A stretch of 64,000 nucleotides of DNA from Nordella sp. HKS 07 (GTDB lineage Bacteria; Pseudomonadota; Alphaproteobacteria; Rhizobiales; Aestuariivirgaceae), in assembly GCF_011046735.1 (NCBI RefSeq), contig NZ_CP049258.1, positions 5,350,001 to 5,414,000 of the forward strand, in the 5' to 3' direction. The notes under the pieces were generated by a model that was given only the letters and a program-made list of their open reading frames with translations, was not told the DNA's origin and did no database searches. Numbering within the stretch: position 1 is the first letter of the stretch; the number at the start of each line of letters is the position of its first letter. The translations under genes and the position numbers were made by a program. Positions 38,776-47,475 of this stretch are shown here, piece after piece.

Positions 38776-39888
38776 GTGTCAAAACTCTACACGGCCCTGG
38801 GACTCATGTCCGGGACCTCCCTCGACGGCATCGATATCGCCCTCATCACAACCGATGGCGAGGCGACGGTGAAGCGGGGGCCATCGCGCACCTATCCTTA
38901 CGTGCCGACGCAGCGGGCGATGCTCAAGGACGCTCTGAAAGACGCGCTTGGCCTCAAGGACCGGCACGAGCGGCCGAAGAGCCTCGCCGAAGTCGAATGG
39001 GCGTTGACCGAATGGCACGCACTGGCGGTTGAAGCCTTCTGTCAGGAGCTGGGGCTAACCTCCACAGATATCGACGTAATCGGCTTCCACGGGCAGACCG
39101 TTCTGCACCGGCCCGAGCGCCGCCTCACGGTGCAACTGGGCGACGGAGCCCTGCTGGCGCGCCGGCTGAGATGTCGTGTGATCTATGATCTGCGCGCTGA
39201 CGACATCGCCGCTGGCGGGCAGGGAGCGCCCCTGGTGCCGGTCTATCACCGCGCCTTGGCGCAGAGCCTCGAGGCGTTGCCCTTGGCTTTCCTCAATATA
39301 GGCGGGGTAAGCAACGTCACCTGGATCGGCGCCGATGGCACGCTCATCGCCTTCGACACCGGTCCCGGCAACGCGCTCCTCGACGATTGGGCGTTGAAGA
39401 CGACGGGACGGCCGGTCGATACCGGTGGCAGGCTGGCCTTCTCGGGCCGCGTCCACGAGGCGGTGCTGGCGCAGTTCCTGGGGGATTCCTTCTTCGAGGA
39501 ACAGCCGCCCAAATCACTCGACCGCGACAGCTTCGGCTCGCTCGATCTCGGCGGCCTGAGCCCGGGCGATGGCGCGGCGACGCTCACCGCCTTCACCGCA
39601 GGCGCGGTGGCGCTTTCGCGCAATTGGTTCCCGGCCGATCCGAAATGCTGGGTGATCTGCGGCGGCGGGCGCAAGAACCCGGCTTTGATGGCGGCATTAC
39701 GCGCCGCCTTGCGTCTGGGCCCCGAGGCCATTCTCCCGGCCGAGGCGGTAGGCTTCGATGGCGATGCCATGGAAGCCGAAGCCTGGGCCTATCTCGCCGT
39801 GCGCAGCCTGAAGGAGTTGCCGATCACATTCCCCGGCACCACTGGCGCGCCGGAGCCGATGACCGGAGGGCTCAGCGCGGAGCCCTGA
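38776..39888 (+). CDS. anmK: Anhydro-N-acetylmuramic acid kinase
   Basis: The 370-residue kinase opens and phosphorylates 1,6-anhydro-MurNAc to MurNAc-6-P during cell-wall recycling. It belongs to the ASKHA fold. The phosphate loop is GLMSGTSLDGIDIAL, the catalytic region DVIGFHGQTVLHRP, the second phosphate site NIGGVSNVTWIG, and the sugar-site block IAFDTGPGNALLDDW. Translation starts at GTG 38776. Pairing with divergent tyrS is common in alphaproteobacteria. Together with the amidase, PBP1A and the peptide locus at 41-46 kb, it shows that cell-wall recycling is active in this organism. Confidence 0.96.
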   Translation: MSKLYTALGLMSGTSLDGIDIALITTDGEATVKRGPSRTYPYVPTQRAMLKDALKDALGLKDRHERPKSLAEVEWALTEWHALAVEAFCQELGLTSTDIDVIGFHGQTVLHRPERRLTVQLGDGALLARRLRCRVIYDLRADDIAAGGQGAPLVPVYHRALAQSLEALPLAFLNIGGVSNVTWIGADGTLIAFDTGPGNALLDDWALKTTGRPVDTGGRLAFSGRVHEAVLAQFLGDSFFEEQPPKSLDRDSFGSLDLGGLSPGDGAATLTAFTAGAVALSRNWFPADPKCWVICGGGRKNPALMAALRAALRLGPEAILPAEAVGFDGDAMEAEAWAYLAVRSLKELPITFPGTTGAPEPMTGGLSAEP

Positions 39889-40886: not shown

Positions 40887-42431
40887 TCAGCCGAGCCTGG
40901 AGCTTGGCGTGCACAGATAGCAGAGCTCGTGGTTCGCCTCGGCATTCATGCTTGCGAAGATCACGGCGCCGTCATAGGGGGCAAGGATGTCCGTGCCGTC
41001 AGCGCGACGACCGATGACCTCGCCTTCGGTCACAGCCTCGCACGCCTTGAATGGGCGCACGAGGCGGTCGTCCTCGTGAGCGGCGAGTATGACATCGACG
41101 ATCTCCAGAACGCGCGGCTTTCTTATGGCTGGCGAGGCTGCTGTGATGACCCCCAGATGGGCAAGTCCGTTGACGACACACTCATAGCCAATCAGCTGGG
41201 CGTCCGGAGCGAGATGCTGACCGCACTCCACGGTCACGCCATAGCCTCCGGAAAACCGCATATATTCGGTCGTTCCCACGCCCTGCAGGGATGAGATCCC
41301 GTTTACCCCGGCCGCCTGCTTCTGACCCTGGGCCTTCTCATGCGCAGCGAGCCAACCATGAACGACCAGAGGCAGGTTCATCGCCTTGGCCAGCGCCGCC
41401 TCGGCATCGGCATAAGCAAACGGTTCCAGGGCGCCCGTGTTGTCTTGCGGGCCGATCAGCGCGAATGCCTCGCCTTCGCCATTGAAGGAATGCAGGTCAA
41501 TCAGAACATCGTGGGCGCGCAGGAGCGGGCAGAGCACATTGGCCACGCGATCCTCATTATCCCGCGGAATCGGGCTTTCGCTCAGGTTGCGATTGAGGTT
41601 GCGATGGCCGGCGCGGGTGTTCTGCCGGAAGGCAAGGCCGTTGACCAGGGGAACGAAAGTCAGCGTGCCACGCTCAAGCAGCCGTGCGCCCGAACGGAAT
41701 TCTGCGATCAGCCGGGCAATGGCATATGGGCCGGCCGGCTCGTTGCCGTGAACGGCTCCGGTGACGATGACGCGCGGCCCTGGCCTCAGGCCATGAAAGG
41801 TCACGCTCTCGATCGCTTGCGGCGCGGCGGCGACCAGCGGGGCAGGCGCCTTGGCCTCATGGTCCACCGGTGCGATATCGATGTACATTCCCGGGCGCAG
41901 GCGGCGTCCCAATTCCAGAAGATCCTCATGTGCGACCACTACGCAACCCGCGGTGCCTGAATAGTCGGGCCGCGCCGCGTGCATGAAGATGGCCGAGCCA
42001 CCGGCAGCCATTGTAAGGGAATCGTTCCAGCCAACGGGAATGAACAGGTCGAAGAGGCTTTCGCCGCGCCGCGAGGGCTGTGTCTCGTCGGTCTCAAATA
42101 CGAGTTTGTTGTAGAAGGCGCTGCCGGGGTCCTCGATCCAGCGATAGTTCGGTGGCTTGGGCAGGAACGGAAAGTCGAAGCCTCGTGGCGCATCTCCGAA
42201 GACATCGGGATCGTAGAAGCCGTAGCGGAGCGGATACCGCCCGATTGGCGTCTTGCCGTCTCCCTCGCGCTTGTGCTGCGGCTCGACGAGGCCCCCGCGC
42301 CCGACGGCGCATTTGACCGTCCAGTCGTCGATGGTGAGCGTGCCGATATGTGCCGCGCCGGGGTCGTGGCCCACGCGAACGACAATCGTCTTCTGCTCCA
42401 ACGTTCCGACCATGAAGGGGTTCTGGTTCAT
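40887..42431 (-). CDS. Fusion of YkuD L,D-transpeptidase domain and AstE/AspA zinc hydrolase domain
   Basis: The 514-residue protein joins two enzymes. Residues about 15-190 form a YkuD-type domain with DGKTPIGRYPLRYG and the catalytic site FMHAARPDYSGTAGCVVV (His151, Cys163). Residues about 205-505 form a succinylglutamate desuccinylase/aspartoacylase-type M14 zinc domain with zinc ligands in AVHGNEPAG (His228, Glu231) and LIDLHSFNGE (His314), and a probable catalytic Glu in TVECGQH. No signal peptide is visible, so it should act in the cytoplasm. I chose ATG 42431 (AGAGGT upstream), one base after the dppF-like stop. It lies last in a peptide-import operon, and I infer it processes imported cell-wall peptides. 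Substrates are unproven. Confidence 0.88.
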   Translation of the reverse strand: MNQNPFMVGTLEQKTIVVRVGHDPGAAHIGTLTIDDWTVKCAVGRGGLVEPQHKREGDGKTPIGRYPLRYGFYDPDVFGDAPRGFDFPFLPKPPNYRWIEDPGSAFYNKLVFETDETQPSRRGESLFDLFIPVGWNDSLTMAAGGSAIFMHAARPDYSGTAGCVVVAHEDLLELGRRLRPGMYIDIAPVDHEAKAPAPLVAAAPQAIESVTFHGLRPGPRVIVTGAVHGNEPAGPYAIARLIAEFRSGARLLERGTLTFVPLVNGLAFRQNTRAGHRNLNRNLSESPIPRDNEDRVANVLCPLLRAHDVLIDLHSFNGEGEAFALIGPQDNTGALEPFAYADAEAALAKAMNLPLVVHGWLAAHEKAQGQKQAAGVNGISSLQGVGTTEYMRFSGGYGVTVECGQHLAPDAQLIGYECVVNGLAHLGVITAASPAIRKPRVLEIVDVILAAHEDDRLVRPFKACEAVTEGEVIGRRADGTDILAPYDGAVIFASMNAEANHELCYLCTPSSRLG

Positions 42432-42432
42432 T

Positions 42433-43431
42433 CTATTGACCTCTGGGTAGTAAATGACAACGGGCGCGATGGGCTTGCGCAACCGGCGTGAAGTCGGGCG
42501 CGTCGCCCTGGCGACAGGCGTCGATGGCAACGGCGCACCGGGGATTGAAGGCACAGCCGGGAGGAGGGTGCAACGCGGTTGGCGCCTCGCCTTTCATGCG
42601 CCGTTTCGTAGCGACCGGCGTTATTGGGTCGGGGATCGAGGAGATCAGTGCCTGCGTGTAAGGATGCATCGGCGCGGTGAAAATGTCGCTCCACCCCCCT
42701 TCCTCGACGATACGGCCCAGATACATGACGGCGACGCGGTCGCTCATATGCTCGACCACCCCGAGGTCGTGCGAAATCATCAGGAGGGCGATGCCGAGAT
42801 CGTCCTTCAGCTGCATCAGCAGATTGATGATCTGCGCGCGGATCGAGACGTCCAGAGCCGAGACAGGTTCATCACAGACCAGCAGCTTGGGCTGGATGAT
42901 GAGCGCCCGCGCAATGCAGATGCGCTGGCGTTGTCCGCCGGAAAATTCGTGCGGCAGCCGGTCGGCGGCCTCGGGCTTCATGCCGACGCGCGCCAGCATA
43001 TCGACAACGCGGGCTTCGATCTCGTGGCGGTCGCCCATGCCATGCAACCGAAGAGGGCCGGCCAATGCTTGACGGATACTCTGGCGGGGGTTGAGCGACG
43101 CGAAGGGATCCTGAAAAACCATCTGCACGTTGCGTGCATGGCTGAGTGGATTGCGTCGCACGGCTTCCGCGACATCCTGCCCCGCGACACGGACGGATCC
43201 GGAAGTGATGGACACCAATCCCATGATCGCCTGCGCGAAAGTGGACTTGCCGCAACCTGATTCACCCACCAGGCCGAGGCATTCGCCCGCCCGAATGTTC
43301 AGGGTGATGCCATCCACGGCCTTGAGCGACTTTCTGCGCAGACCTTCGCGTACGGGATAGTGGACGCAAAGGTCGCGCGTATCGAATGCGTCGACCGGCC
43401 CTCCGGGCGGCACGCCGGTGAGTTCAGCCAT
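42433..43431 (-). CDS. Peptide ABC transporter ATPase, DppF/OppF type
   Basis: The 332-residue ATPase drives peptide import with its DppD-type partner. Walker A is [15 protein letters not shown], the signature is FSGGQRQRICIARAL, Walker B LLVCDEPVSALD, and the H-loop SHDLG. The C-terminal oligopeptide-transporter extension contains HPYTQALISSIP, followed by a cysteine-containing segment (GCAFNPRC...ARCHLL) of the sort that binds an iron-sulfur cluster in DppD/DppF proteins. It overlaps the preceding ATPase gene by eight bases and is followed one base later by the fusion gene. It appears intact although the permease genes upstream are not. Confidence 0.93.
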   Translation of the reverse strand: MAELTGVPPGGPVDAFDTRDLCVHYPVREGLRRKSLKAVDGITLNIRAGECLGLVGESGCGKSTFAQAIMGLVSITSGSVRVAGQDVAEAVRRNPLSHARNVQMVFQDPFASLNPRQSIRQALAGPLRLHGMGDRHEIEARVVDMLARVGMKPEAADRLPHEFSGGQRQRICIARALIIQPKLLVCDEPVSALDVSIRAQIINLLMQLKDDLGIALLMISHDLGVVEHMSDRVAVMYLGRIVEEGGWSDIFTAPMHPYTQALISSIPDPITPVATKRRMKGEAPTALHPPPGCAFNPRCAVAIDACRQGDAPDFTPVAQAHRARCHLLPRGQ

Positions 43432-44404
43432 GGTGGAAGCACCTTATCCTGCCATTTTGGGCCAACGGCTTGGCGGGCGGCATATCGGCGCGGCAGAGAT
43501 CGGTCGTGCTGCCGCAGCGCGCCGCGAAACCGCAGCCCTGACCTCGCTCGGTCAAAGCGGGCACGACGCCCTTGATCTCCTGGAGCGGTTGGCGTCCTTT
43601 CTGCAGTCGCCGGCCGAGACGTGGCAGGGACGCGACCAGTCCGCGCGTATAAGGATGGCGCGGATCGGTGAAAATCTCGCTCGCCGCGCGTTCTTCCACG
43701 ATGTGCCCTGCATACATGACGGCAACCCTGTTGCAGATGCGGGCAACAAGCCCCAGATCGTGCGATATCATCAGCACGGCCGTACCGCGCGCCCGGCATA
43801 GATCGAGGATCAGCTCGACGATCTCCGCCTGAATGGTCACATCGAGCGCCGTTGTGGGTTCATCCGCTATGAGCAAAGCGGGGTTGCAGGCCAGCGCGAT
43901 GGCGATCATCACGCGCTGCCGCATCCCGCCCGAGAGCTGGTGCGGATAGTCCCGGATGCGACGCTCCGGGCTCGGCACCTGCACCTGCTCCAGCGACTCG
44001 ATTGCCTTGACGCGCGCCTGACGTCCGCTCATGTTCTGGTGCAGCAGAAACATCTCGCCGATCTGATCGCCGATGGTCATCAGCGGGTTCAGCGAGGTCA
44101 TCGGCTCCTGAAATATCATGGCGATGCGGTCGCCGCGCAAGCGGCGCATGTCGCGGTTCGAGAGCTGGTTGATATCGCGTCCCTCGACGTCAATTCGTCC
44201 GCCGGCGATGTGCATCGGGTCCCGCAGCAGCCCGGCAATGCTCAGGGCGCACAGGCTTTTGCCGCAACCGGACTCGCCCACCAGGCCGAATACCTCGCCG
44301 CGCTCGATGGCAAAGCTCAGATTGCTGACAGCGGCGAAATCTCTCTCCTTGAGGCGCAACGTGATCGACAGGTCGTCGACCTCGAGGATTGGTTGATCGG
44401 CCAT
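43424..44404 (-). CDS. Peptide ABC transporter ATPase, DppD/OppD type
   Basis: The 326-residue ATPase is the partner of the adjacent DppF-type protein. Walker A is [15 protein letters not shown], the Q-loop is in [17 protein letters not shown], the signature [15 protein letters not shown], Walker [13 protein letters not shown], then SHDLGLVA. The C-terminal [12 protein letters not shown] and [10 protein letters not shown] complete the family pattern. I chose ATG 44404 ([12 protein letters not shown]), which shares one base with the TGA stop of the upstream permease fragment; residues before it are out-of-frame noise. Intact by itself, but without a complete permease it may have no partner. 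Confidence 0.93.
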
Positions 44405-44688
44405 CAGCGCTTCGCCTTGCCGTGCGGGTCGAGAATGTCGCGCAGACCGTCGCCCAGCATATTGAATCCGAGTACCGTGGCGAACAGCGCGAGGCCGGGA
44501 AACAAAGCCACCCAAGGCGCGACCATGAGCTGTTCGCGAGCTCTTGCCAGCATGCCGCCCCAACTCGGCGCGGGCGGCACGACCCCGAGACCGAGGAAGG
44601 AGAGAGCGGCTTCGGCCATGATCGCGGAGCCGATGCCCATGGTCGCCACGACGATGAGCGGCCCGCTGATGTTAGGCAGAGAGCGCGC
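44404..44688 (-). pseudogene. 3' remnant of peptide ABC permease dppC
   Basis: Only the last 95 or so residues of a DppC/OppC permease remain. They begin at about (AR)SLPNISGPLIVVATMG and include the family block AEAALSFLGLGVVPPAPSWG and the C-terminal LFATVLGFNMLGDGLRDILDP. The first two thirds of the usual 280-300 residues are missing. Upstream in the same region is the sequence of a binding protein in another frame. The boundary near 44675-44690 is therefore a deletion junction or a misassembly. The remnant has no start of its own. Confidence 0.88.
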
Positions 44689-45427
44689 TGGTGTCGTCCG
44701 AGATGGTGAAGTCGACCGCATCGGCATAGGGTTTGCCCTGCTTGTAGTACTTGTCGAATTTCTTGCCGGAGATGCGCGAGCCCTCGATGTGCTCGACGAA
44801 GCTGAATGGTCCGAGACCGACCGGCTGGGTGAGGAAATTGCCACCTTCCACCTCTTCCCTGGGAATGATGGCGGTGATCGCCTCGAAGAAGAGCATGCCA
44901 GGATCGACGAAATCACTGAAGGTCATCGAGAATGTGCGGTCGTCGATCTTCTTCAGCCCGCTGATTTCCTTCGCCTTGCCGTCGGCGTAGTCCTTGGCAC
45001 CCGCCAGCGTGCCTACCTGCACCGAGCCGGGATAGCCCTTGGTGGGATCCATGACGCGGGTATAGGACCAGATGACGTCGTCGGTCGTCAGCTTGCGGCC
45101 GTTGTGGAAATAGATGTTGTCGAACAACTCGTAGGTATAGGTCTTGCCGTCTTCGCTGGTGCTGACCAGTTTGGCGAGGTCGAGCGCCGGTGCGTTATTC
45201 GAGGAATCCCACGTGTAGAGCGCGCGGTGGAAGGCCTTGGAGACAACCATGTCCTGTGAATTGTAGCTGACGTGCGGATCAAGGCTCTTGAGCGCGGCAC
45301 CATAGGGCGCGGCAAGTTGCAGCTTTCCGCCGGAAACCGGCTCCTGCGCCCAGGGAGTACCCATGGGCGCCGCCATGGCGATCGCCGCCGCCACGAGCAG
45401 GGTCTTCAATCTGAATCGATAGCTCAT
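44672..45427 (-). pseudogene. Truncated peptide ABC transporter substrate-binding protein (DppA/OppA, SBP_bac_5)
   Basis: An exported solute-binding protein with signal peptide MSYRFRLKTLLVAAAIAM...PWAQ and the family's N-terminal half: LDPHVSYNSQDMVV, TYTYELFDNIYFHNGRKLTTDDVIWSYTR, and VGLGPFSFVEHIEGSRI. It stops after 251 residues, about half the usual 500-530, exactly where the sequence changes into dppC. The second lobe needed to close on ligand is absent. The start ATG 45427 has a strong AAGGGGAA ribosome binding site, so the 5' end is intact. It lies 40 bases after the serine hydrolase gene. Confidence 0.9.
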
Positions 45428-45467
45428 CGTTATTCCCCTTCCTGGTTGTTGTTTCATTCCTGAGAGC

Positions 45468-46379
45468 TCAATCGGCAGCCCGGCCAAAGGCATGCCCATA
45501 GAATCGTCGCGCGAATTCGGGCAGGAAAGTTCTGTCGCCCGCAGGCCATGTTCCGTCCGTCATCACACAAAGAGTAAAACTCCGCCCGTCCGGCAGCTCG
45601 GCATAAACGAGATCGTGCCGTGTCCATGAGGTATGGCCGGCCTTCGACCAGGTCCTGACTTCGGCGGGCAGCCCTTCGACAAGAAAGCCGCGGACCTGAT
45701 CGCCTTCGGGGTCGATGCCGGAAGCGTTGCGCTGAAAATCGCGCGACAGGAGGTCCATCATCCACCCGGAGCGGGGGCTGGCGCCGCGTGCGATATCGTG
45801 CATCAAGGCCGCCCCTGCGAGTGCCGTCAGCAGATTGCCGTTGCCGTCGCGGCGGGCCTGGAAGGCGCGGCCATAGGGACTATCCTGATAGGTGCCGTGC
45901 AGGACGTTGATTCCTGCAAGCTCGGAACGGTTCTGCGCCGTGTACCAGTTCTGCACCCGCGCGCGCCGGGCGCACCAGTCCTCCAGCGCCTGACCGTAAA
46001 GCGGCGCCCCATCATCGGCCCCGGTCAGCCGCCCGACCAGATAGACCGTCGCCTCGTTCGAGGACGTCCTGATCATATCGGCGGCGGCGCGGTAGTCTTC
46101 CGGCTCGCGGTCAAGGAGACCTTCGTCGTGAAAGCCGGCGAGGGCGTTCAGATAAAACAGCTTCACCACGCTGGCCGGATAGACCGGCGAAACGGCCCTG
46201 TGTCCCCACCATGATTGCCCGATGAAGGGTCCGGGATCGGCGTGACGAAGTGGTGCATCATAGAGGCAGGCCGCAACCGAGACGTGGTCTTCACCCAGGG
46301 CGCCCTGCGTCTGTTCCAGTGCCCCCACAAAGGCATCGGCCGCAGGATGCGTTGCTGAAACCGGCGCCGGCCTGGCCAT
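45468..46379 (-). CDS. Leaderless class A beta-lactamase-fold serine hydrolase
   Basis: The 303-residue protein has the penicillin-recognising fold. The nucleophile motif is SVVK (Ser70-Lys73) in YPASVVKLFYLNAL. The second motif is changed from SDN to SSN in RTSSNEATVYLVG, and the third from KTG to KAG in WSKAGHTSW. There is no glutamate-containing Omega-loop ExxLN that I can identify, and no signal peptide, so resistance to periplasmic beta-lactams is unlikely. As first gene of a peptide-import operon it is more plausibly a cytoplasmic peptidase or amidase acting on imported D-amino-acid-containing peptides. That role is inference. Confidence 0.83.
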   Translation of the reverse strand: MARPAPVSATHPAADAFVGALEQTQGALGEDHVSVAACLYDAPLRHADPGPFIGQSWWGHRAVSPVYPASVVKLFYLNALAGFHDEGLLDREPEDYRAAADMIRTSSNEATVYLVGRLTGADDGAPLYGQALEDWCARRARVQNWYTAQNRSELAGINVLHGTYQDSPYGRAFQARRDGNGNLLTALAGAALMHDIARGASPRSGWMMDLLSRDFQRNASGIDPEGDQVRGFLVEGLPAEVRTWSKAGHTSWTRHDLVYAELPDGRSFTLCVMTDGTWPAGDRTFLPEFARRFYGHAFGRAAD

Positions 46380-46440: not shown

Positions 46441-46512
46441 AAAAGTGGATGTAAGTTCATTCGTTTTGGATATGATTTGGCGCGACTTTAGTATTTGCGG
46501 TGGTCATGTCTG

Positions 46513-47475
46513 ATGGCTGTTCACACAGATCATATCAATTTACGCCAGGTGGAGATTTTCCGTGCCACGATGAAGTTCGGCACCGTTACCGGCGCGGCGG
46601 CGGCGCTCGGATCCTCCCAGCCGACCATTACGCGTGAGTTGGCGCGATTGGAAGCGCATGTCGGCTTTTCACTTTTCGAACGCAAACGTCAGCGTCTTGT
46701 GCCGACGGCGCGGGCAATCAAGCTCTATCAGGAGGTGCAGGCCTCATTCATCGGCCTGGACCGCATCAACGGCGTTGTCGAGCGGCTGCGGGAGGCTTCC
46801 GAGGAAGTGCTGACGGTCGCCTCGCTTCCGGCCTTCGCGCAAACGATCCTGCCGGAGGCGATTGCCCGCCTGGCCGTTGCCTATCCGAGCCTGACGTTGA
46901 ATATCAGCACTGTCGATCCGCGCAACCAATCCTCGATTTCCGGTTTCAATTTCGACCTCGGACTGATCGAAGACGTCTACACCCAACGCGATGCGGAGGT
47001 CACCATGCTGGGGACTTTCGACCTGGTTGCCATTGTTCCGACAGCGCATCCGTTGGCTGGGCACGAATATTTGCAGCCGAGTGATTTCGAAGGGGTCAGC
47101 TTCATCAGCCTTGGCCCGAATGATCCCTATCGTTTGCCCGTCGAGCGCGTGTTCGACCGGGCGGGAACAAAGAGGCGGCTGTCTCTATCGTCGCAATCGG
47201 CAGGCAGTGTATGTGAACTGGTGAGCAGGGGGCTTGGCATCGCGATCCTCAATCCGCTCTCCGCGCTGGGCTATGAAAGTCCGGCCCTGGCCCTGAAACG
47301 GTTCGCGCCAAGACAGAAGTTCATCGTATCGGCCCTGCGCCCGCTCAATCGCCCCGCAGTGGCCACATCCGACCAGCTTACAAGTCTCTTGCGAACGATA
47401 TGTATGGAAAAGCAGGCGCTGCTGCTGCGCAAGGGATTGGCGCTTCCCGACGAAGCCGAAAGCTGTTCCGGATAG
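46513..47475 (+). CDS. LysR-family transcriptional regulator
   Basis: The 320-residue regulator has an N-terminal winged helix-turn-helix (LRQVEIFRATMKFGTVTGAAAALGSSQPTITRELARLE) and a periplasmic-binding-protein-like effector domain (from about residue 90). The effector domain contains PTAHPLAGHEYL and CELVSRGLGIAILNPLSA. It diverges from the peptide operon and probably controls it, with a peptide or amino acid as inducer. I chose ATG 46513 (MAVHTDHINLRQ) over an ATG/GTG 18 bases earlier. Relatives include regulators of octopine, D-amino acid and dipeptide catabolism. Confidence 0.93.
   Translation: MAVHTDHINLRQVEIFRATMKFGTVTGAAAALGSSQPTITRELARLEAHVGFSLFERKRQRLVPTARAIKLYQEVQASFIGLDRINGVVERLREASEEVLTVASLPAFAQTILPEAIARLAVAYPSLTLNISTVDPRNQSSISGFNFDLGLIEDVYTQRDAEVTMLGTFDLVAIVPTAHPLAGHEYLQPSDFEGVSFISLGPNDPYRLPVERVFDRAGTKRRLSLSSQSAGSVCELVSRGLGIAILNPLSALGYESPALALKRFAPRQKFIVSALRPLNRPAVATSDQLTSLLRTICMEKQALLLRKGLALPDEAESCSG

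Follow-up and report, generated by a model that had tools for sequence, protein, structure and literature searches.

The YkuD protein Pgp2 of Campylobacter jejuni is described as making the tripeptide needed by Pgp1, and deletion of pgp2 as removing the Pgp1 substrate (PMC3961634), and Csd4 of Helicobacter pylori is presented as an M14 enzyme acting on the tripeptide at its gamma-D-Glu-mDap amide (mDap, meso-diaminopimelic acid; PMC4599014). A leaderless cytoplasmic YkuD protein, ElsL of Acinetobacter baumannii, is characterized as an L,D-carboxypeptidase that cleaves disaccharide tetrapeptide but not pentapeptide (PMC8649774). In Bacillus subtilis, the dpp-ykfABC genes are said to place importer genes beside the LD-carboxypeptidase YkfA and the gamma-D-Glu-Dap endopeptidase YkfC, and the same source names MpaA of Escherichia coli as a metallocarboxypeptidase acting on murein tripeptide (PMC2954226). 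Here, we analysed a 64,000-nucleotide stretch of the genome of Nordella sp. HKS 07 (NZ_CP049258.1, positions 5,350,001-5,414,000; the window), in which one gene on the minus strand (40887-42431) joins a leaderless YkuD half to an AstE/AspA-type zinc-hydrolase half. We refer to this gene and its product as the fusion.

We lean, without great confidence, towards reading the fusion as a cytosolic, single-chain, two-step murein-peptide hydrolase that is fed by the oligopeptide importer of its operon. The YkuD half would first take D-Ala off the tetrapeptide to give the tripeptide. The AstE/AspA half, with zinc on H228, E231 and H314 and E402 as the catalytic residue, would then hydrolyse the gamma-D-Glu-mDap amide of the tripeptide, the products being mDap and L-Ala-D-Glu. 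In the AstE/AspA-type zinc fold, an Asn-Arg pair binds a free carboxylate beside the bond that is cut; therefore, the first step would expose the group that N280-R281 needs in the second. Both activities, their order, the murein-peptide substrate and any channelling are what we infer.

Each chemistry is known separately, and the precedents of ElsL and of Pgp2/Pgp1 make the proposed reactions ordinary; the new part would be their joining in one leaderless chain and a murein-amidase role for an AstE/AspA domain. No description of a YkuD and AstE/AspA pairing, or of an AstE/AspA murein amidase, was found in the open-access literature, which agrees with an earlier model-made note on this DNA (the sequence-only reading) that knew of no such enzyme. 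That reading had also proposed a two-step cytosolic enzyme, which is now partly supported: homologues extend over the full length, the operon is conserved, the structures match, and a relative of the zinc half is linked to an epimerase. For the second cut it had offered an acyl or a gamma-glutamyl amide; the MpaA-like gamma-D-Glu amide is favoured here, and the data neither back nor rule out a generic acyl amide.

A single leaderless chain with two intact domains

The 514-residue translation contains no internal stop. The Pfam models YkuD (PF03734; residues 37-182, E 1.1e-11, 46.0 bits against a gathering cut-off of 23.4) and AstE_AspA_cat (PF24827; residues 217-384, E 1.5e-15, 57.7 bits against a cut-off of 25) are the sole families matched in the chain at E 0.01. 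The catalytic motifs that the sequence-only reading had called intact were found, namely HAARPDYSGTAGC (H151, C163), HGNE (H228, E231) and DLHS (H314), and they are conserved across the fusion loci. Both models matched in all 36 sequences scanned (the window protein and 35 homologues; E 0.001). Comparison with the Mesorhizobium soli homologue (locus L046) gave a ratio of nonsynonymous to synonymous divergence (dN/dS) of 0.114/1.052 (~0.11) for the whole chain, with each half constrained (YkuD, 0.083/0.852; AspA, 0.135/1.204). Purifying selection acts on the fusion chain. A sequencing or frame artefact is ruled out by the two domains in 36 of 36 sequences together with this dN/dS, and a chance read-through of two genes by the fused state of 40 of the 41 loci described below; the halves are not always separate genes.

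Absence of an export signal was judged from hydropathy alone, and no signal peptide was visible in the window protein or in the 17 of 40 aligned rows that begin with Met (the remaining rows begin at the start of the tblastn match), as the sequence-only reading had held for the window protein. Within its N-terminal 45 residues, the highest 15-residue Kyte-Doolittle mean is 0.84, with no hydrophobic stretch, and the same measure is at most 1.27 in the homologues beginning with Met. In contrast, of eight further YkuD loci from this genome, the three that were read in the correct frame peak at 1.87-2.21 within their first 60 residues. An alternative GTG start at 42554 would lengthen the chain; close homologues begin M(N/S/H)QNPF. 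Judging from these N-termini, the fusion protein is probably cytosolic.

E56, D58, H151 and C163 do not vary among the 40 aligned loci and are also present in the one locus where the halves are split (L056). H228, E231, N280, R281, H314 and E402 occur in all 41 fusion loci and in all 45 loci with a stand-alone AspA half. By the roles usual in the family, H228, E231 and H314 would be zinc ligands, E402 the catalytic residue and N280-R281 the Asn-Arg pair. The predicted full-length model has a mean pLDDT (predicted local distance difference test) of 81.7 and a pTM (predicted template modelling score) of 0.61, and in it the AstE/AspA fold reaches the C-terminal end (residues 205-512, compared with 3cdx). 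Because the AspA half filled the match list of this model, the YkuD half was modelled separately (mean pLDDT 84.9, pTM 0.81).

Nearest relatives of the YkuD half

In the VIA-align comparison, the top fold match of the YkuD half is C. jejuni Pgp2 (Z 11.9, root-mean-square deviation [rmsd] 3.0, 126 aligned residues), followed by H. pylori Csd6 (Z 11.2, rmsd 2.9, 124 aligned), which is, like Pgp2, an L,D-carboxypeptidase. B. subtilis YkuD reaches Z 10.4 (103 aligned), and transpeptidases are listed below it (Z up to 10.2); Z gaps of less than 1 count as ties, so that only Pgp2 stands clear. A profile search taken to E 5 returned as its sole YkuD-type PDB matches Bd1075 (E 0.06) and two Pgp2 entries (E 0.53 and 0.55), all of them weak, and NCBIfam gave no family for this half at E 1. 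In a weak alignment, KKIEGDLKTPVG of Pgp2 lies on KREGDGKTPIG of the window protein. Through this alignment, Csd6 Glu110, which is described as required for activity and to which mDap recognition is ascribed (PMC4599014), appears to correspond to E56, the residue invariant in 41 loci. Taken together, the fold ranking, the profile search and the EGD-TPxG loop argue, at weak-to-moderate strength, that the YkuD half is nearer to L,D-carboxypeptidases than to transpeptidases.

The loop-and-Cys pattern also occurs in 18 of the 29 stand-alone YkuD loci of relatives (17 with EGD, one with EGE), and the lack of a match in the other 11 may be the fault of the pattern. The window genome, a single contig of 7.18 Mb, has 28 YkuD matches; at E 1e-3 the fusion query picks, besides itself, two of these stretches (35% identity at 4498513 and 30% at 2346510). 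The YkuD half is therefore part of a distinct subgroup, outside the majority of these matches. Two other YkuD genes of this genome (633977-634381 and 648976-649380; L006 and L007) have equal scores and the same active-site stretch and lie 15 kb apart in opposite orientation, perhaps as an inverted duplication.

Distribution of the fusion and of the stand-alone zinc half

Locus counts rest on the best 80 matches of a scan of genome contigs (L045-L124), together with plasmids and the window. Four plasmids carry a fusion homologue (71, 59, 59 and 43% identity), and the genome scan added 36 loci with both halves (L045-L080), from Mesorhizobium soli, Phyllobacterium, Pseudochrobactrum, Paenochrobactrum, Brucella, Neorhizobium, Rhizobium, Ciceribacter, Ensifer, Microvirga and Rhodobacterales. 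Among the matches listed, 41 loci including the window thus have both halves, 40 in a single chain and one split. Since same-species pairs are present (L040/L058 and L045/L046), these are not 41 independent cases. Full-length matches were found in none of the 59 relatives of the window genome, its four other same-genus genomes included, which indicates a patchy distribution. The AspA half alone was found in 45 loci among the matches listed (44 from the scan, L081-L124, and one Sulfuriferula plasmid), and it is common as a single protein in betaproteobacteria. A search with the YkuD half was positive in 0 of these 45 loci, versus 41 of 41 fusion loci.

Several loci deserve separate mention. In the split locus, from Paenochrobactrum gallinarii (L056, 10001-11554), TAA is directly followed by ATG between the halves, and tblastn with the operon genes gave no match within 10 kb upstream; the gene may be decaying, or the halves may work as two proteins. 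Two loci represent a second lineage: on an Ensifer plasmid (L042, 8266-10551), a GntR regulator adjoins the fusion and no importer is present, and in Rhizobium jaguaris (L044, 8212-9594) a GntR-like gene adjoins a lone YkuD half. A record named Bacillus subtilis SK6B4 (L047) shares its gene order with the Pseudochrobactrum loci L049 and L050, has almost equal identities and is probably mislabelled or contaminated. The Sulfuriferula plasmid (L043, 1-7792) carries a 38% homologue of the AspA half amid two ATP-grasp genes and genes for argininosuccinate lyase, PhzF, a major facilitator superfamily transporter and an acyl-homoserine-lactone synthase, and looks like a small biosynthetic cluster.

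The peptide-import operon

Operon counts were obtained by tblastn of the neighbouring genes, the upstream reach being only 4.1 kb in L055 and 2.3 kb in L068. The order usually seen in Rhizobiaceae, Brucellaceae and Rhodobacterales is a divergent LysR gene, a serine hydrolase, a binding protein, two permeases, two ATPases and the fusion. In 35 of the 41 loci the fusion follows directly on the ATPase genes (exceptions: L042, L045, L056, L067, L068 and L069), a count that leaves out low-identity transporter matches (28-39%) in L045 and L067. The sequence-only reading had placed the gene last in a peptide-import operon, which holds for most of the family; in the window genome itself the import genes are broken (Table 1). 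There, the binding protein breaks off after ~250-270 residues and runs into the remaining, C-terminal part of the second permease, and by BLASTN the 2442 extra bases of M. soli L046 at this point comprise the rest of the binding protein, the first permease and most of the second. The missing ~2.4 kb may reflect a real deletion or an assembly fault.

Table 1. Coordinates of the fusion gene, its domains and the upstream operon genes in the window
Feature	Position	Strand	Basis
Fusion gene, 514 residues: leaderless YkuD half and AstE/AspA zinc-hydrolase half	40887..42431	-	Open frame; two Pfam domains, each above its cut-off; both halves in 41 loci (window counted)
AstE/AspA half, residues 217-514: H228/E231/H314, N280-R281, E402, C-terminal beta domain	40890..41783	-	Pfam, conservation, fold
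YkuD domain, residues 37-182: catalytic H151 and C163; K54-R-E-G-D-x-x-T-P-x-G loop	41886..42323	-	Pfam, conservation
OppF/DppF-type ABC (ATP-binding cassette) ATPase, directly upstream of the fusion	42433..43431	-	Library matches; same position in 35/41 loci
OppD/DppD-type ABC ATPase; true start probably ~44407 (by eye)	43424..44563	-	
Remnant of second permease, C-terminal part (BPD_transp_1)	44404..44679	-	
Junction, ~2.4 kb absent relative to M. soli L046	44679..44681		BLASTN against L046 and L039
Remnant of peptide-binding protein, N-terminal half (SBP_bac_5)	44681..45499	-	
Class A beta-lactamase-like serine hydrolase, no obvious leader; PASVVK, SSNE, SKAGH	45468..46379	-	Beta-lactamase2, 31.6 bits (cut-off 22)
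Divergent LysR-type regulator	46495..47475	+	Divergent LysR match in 30/41 fusion loci

The serine hydrolase was detected by tblastn in 22 of the 41 fusion loci, and by pattern its boxes are present in nearly all of these (PAS-xx-K in 21, SSN in 22 and SKAGH in 18 of the 22). As the first gene of the operon, it possibly encodes a cytosolic peptidase for D-Ala-D-Ala ends. In Microvirga, an M81/MlrC-type peptidase and an amidohydrolase replace it (MlrC in 11 and the amidohydrolase in 12 of the 41 loci). The operons of Microvirga (L080, 1255-4436) and Bosea (L082, 913-4134) open with genes for an MlrC/M81 metallopeptidase and an Amidohydro_3 protein. A run of MlrC, amidohydrolase, binding protein and permease genes ends in the AspA half alone in 6 of the 45 stand-alone loci (L082, L084, L088, L090, L091 and L103), and in four of these six tblastn found no ATPases upstream. 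In these operons the zinc half would therefore be the constant enzyme, and the YkuD half a component that was either added or can be lost.

On the other side of the fusion, a gene for AnmK, an anhydro-MurNAc kinase (38776-39888), lies on the other strand ~1 kb beyond the 3' end, with a sigma-factor gene between them. It was considered as context for the fusion and dropped because of its opposite strand; the proximity is probably a coincidence.

An epimerase-linked relative in Rhodoferax

In one Rhodoferax locus (L097, 8836-16259), genes for an epimerase, a stand-alone AspA protein, a binding protein, two permeases and two ATPases follow one another in a single direction, and a second locus (L110) shows the same beginning of the run. 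The best PDB match of the L097 epimerase is 1jpm, an L-Ala-D/L-Glu epimerase, at 314 bits versus 256 for the next. In E. coli, ycjG lies beside mpaA, with mppA ~2.6 kb further. By its predicted gene content, the L097 run is a candidate murein-peptide catabolic operon. The epimerase query was positive in 0 of the 41 fusion loci. Searching the 200 family genomes of one Rhodoferax genome returned the epimerase (E up to 1e-60) in two and AspA (E up to 1e-50) in 57.

Weighing the evidence

A number of observations tell against a two-step murein-peptide hydrolase and are collected here, with the alternatives on which they bear. The importer is broken in the window genome, and the role of the enzyme in Nordella sp. 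HKS 07 is thus uncertain. The gene may there be a leftover of the importer deletion with no role of its own, a view that is compatible with any of the other readings and that we consider possible, though on balance unlikely. It would account for the ~2.4 kb gap in the operon and fit the lack of a full-length homologue in the four other same-genus genomes. However, the reading frame is uninterrupted with its catalytic residues in place, the gap may be an assembly fault, and dN/dS relative to M. soli is low, although this value mostly reflects the time before the deletion.

For the zinc half, the nearest solved folds belong to two hydrolases of acyl amides, DoeB (Z 26.3) and AstE (Z 25.4). Tripeptide-bound Csd4 (4wcn) also superposes on this half (Z 20.2, rmsd 2.8, 197 aligned residues), and a Z of ~20 between a predicted model and Csd4 is a matter of shared M14-type fold and not of function. 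A tblastn query with E. coli MpaA matched none of the 87 loci at E 1e-10, a level at which remoter homology is possible, and no Pfam M14 family matched the window protein at E 0.01. What suggests a murein substrate for this half is its context, namely the YkuD partner, the importer and the Rhodoferax operon.

The zinc half could instead be a DoeB/AstE-like deacylase of N-acyl amino or diamino acids, with the YkuD half cutting an unrelated bond of the same imported compound (a siderophore with D-residues, an opine or a signal peptide). DoeB is, besides its fold, the best NCBIfam match of the fusion, at 30.6 bits far below the cut-off of 402.7, and the Sulfuriferula homologue of the zinc half sits in a non-murein context. 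Identity to DoeB in the fold alignment is, however, only 23% (16-23% across the family), and the dipeptide-epimerase-like gene of the Rhodoferax operon points elsewhere; we regard such a deacylase as improbable. Hydrolysis of a non-murein isodipeptide, for example beta-Asp-Arg from cyanophycin, would fit the match to CphZ (8eip and 8ein, a cyanophycin dipeptide hydrolase by title; Z ~21 [21.1]), but CphZ is less similar than DoeB (16-17% identity) and beta-Asp-Arg leaves no evident role for the YkuD half, so that we give this option very little credence.

For the YkuD half, the separation from transpeptidases is narrow. Bd1075, another reported L,D-carboxypeptidase, is level with them in VIA-align (Z 9.8), and in Foldseek the transpeptidases follow closely behind it (E 0.0008 for Bd1075 versus 0.002). 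The position of Csd6 Trp158, two before the catalytic His, is occupied by Phe149 (Phe in 35 and Leu in one of 36 rows). Between H151 (followed by A152) and the catalytic Cys lie 11 residues, a spacing shorter than that of the motif H(S/G/D)X14-19C as given in PMC4599014; stand-alone YkuD relatives have the same short spacing where the pattern matched. A transpeptidase, a D-amino-acid exchanger or a beta-lactam or carbapenem trap, in an operon that handles imported beta-lactam-like peptides with its serine hydrolase and LysR regulator, would suit the divergent LysR gene beside a class A-like gene, which resembles the AmpR-AmpC layout, and the carbapenem adducts carried by L,D-transpeptidases of this fold (by structure titles), whose Z values come close behind those of the carboxypeptidases; it is nevertheless highly improbable, because a serine hydrolase without an obvious leader would not encounter beta-lactams in the periplasm, L,D-carboxypeptidases lead the fold ranking, and the Microvirga and Bosea loci gave no serine-hydrolase match upstream of the fusion or AspA gene.

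Genomic context has its own weak points for a murein-peptide hydrolase. The MlrC/M81 and amidohydrolase genes of the Microvirga and Bosea operons are unexplained by it. The Rhodoferax epimerase reaches 220 bits where its NCBIfam cut-off is 500 (muconate cycloisomerase, 206 bits) and is linked to a stand-alone AspA gene in only 3 of the 45 loci, all Rhodoferax and one with a 6-kb gap. The epimerase count of 2 in 200 genomes was dropped as independent support, since by coordinates both hits fall in the very genomes from which L097 and L118 come.

The LdcA background was examined as well. LdcA was not found in 11 of the 12 fusion genomes searched (L057 lies outside this set), whereas it is present in four of four betaproteobacterial AspA-only genomes and absent from the one Bosea genome searched. 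However, it was also not found in the window genome or in 58 of its 59 relatives; its absence is the baseline for the order, and as an argument for the role of the fusion it was dropped. In an ampD mutant of Agrobacterium tumefaciens, tri-, tetra- and pentapeptide muropeptides are reported to accumulate in the cytoplasm; no cytosolic L,D-carboxypeptidase activity is seen in this species, and the authors suggest that the peptides may simply be degraded (PMC9790009). As 2 of the 14 YkuD proteins of A. tumefaciens lack a predicted signal peptide (PMC11527210), a leaderless YkuD protein in this order need not be an L,D-carboxypeptidase.

Possible significance

Given its gene order and catalytic residues, the fusion is one candidate enzyme for peptide breakdown in alphaproteobacteria without LdcA. 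As a tentative and rather unlikely extension, the operon could be a complete cytosolic line for stripping stem peptides, of a kind not known to have been described. D-Ala-D-Ala ends would be trimmed by the leaderless serine hydrolase, and the next D-Ala would be taken off by the YkuD half. The AspA half, as the first member of a new AstE/AspA-type class of murein amidases, would cut gamma-D-Glu-mDap, the last two steps being coupled so that toxic tetrapeptide is kept from the reuse ligase. If true, this would be one way for alphaproteobacteria without LdcA to break down murein peptides. Should the zinc half prove to be a murein amidase, the AstE/AspA subgroup now annotated as 'succinylglutamate desuccinylase/aspartoacylase family' would have to be renamed.

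Comparison with known systems

DoeB, AstE and CphZ share their fold and zinc motif with the C-terminal half of the fusion but differ in substrate, show 16-23% identity and had no YkuD partner in the searches made. The mpaA gene resembles the Rhodoferax AspA run in lying beside an L-Ala-D/L-Glu epimerase gene; however, MpaA is a single domain of 242 residues from another Pfam family, with no sequence match at the threshold used above. The dpp-ykfABC genes differ in that YkfC is an NlpC/P60 cysteine peptidase, the proteins are separate and the epimerase used as query was found in no fusion locus, only near a stand-alone AspA gene in Rhodoferax.

Going by its published description, ElsL is alike in being a leaderless YkuD domain, but it is a single-domain protein (class size 105-200 residues, as given in PMC8649774), whereas the fusion has 514 residues and two domains. 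The ortholog list in that report is described as leaving out proteins of more than 200 residues, and such fusions therefore could not appear in it (PMC8649774). The closest parallels to the proposed order of reactions, a YkuD L,D-carboxypeptidase followed by a DL-carboxypeptidase, are Pgp2 with Pgp1 in C. jejuni and Csd6 with Csd4 in H. pylori. The zinc half of the fusion is of the AspA/AstE type rather than the Csd4 type, and the fusion lacks the accessory NTF2 domain. In addition, the Pgp and Csd pairs are separate proteins that trim the wall itself, whereas the fusion is one leaderless chain encoded in a peptide-import operon.

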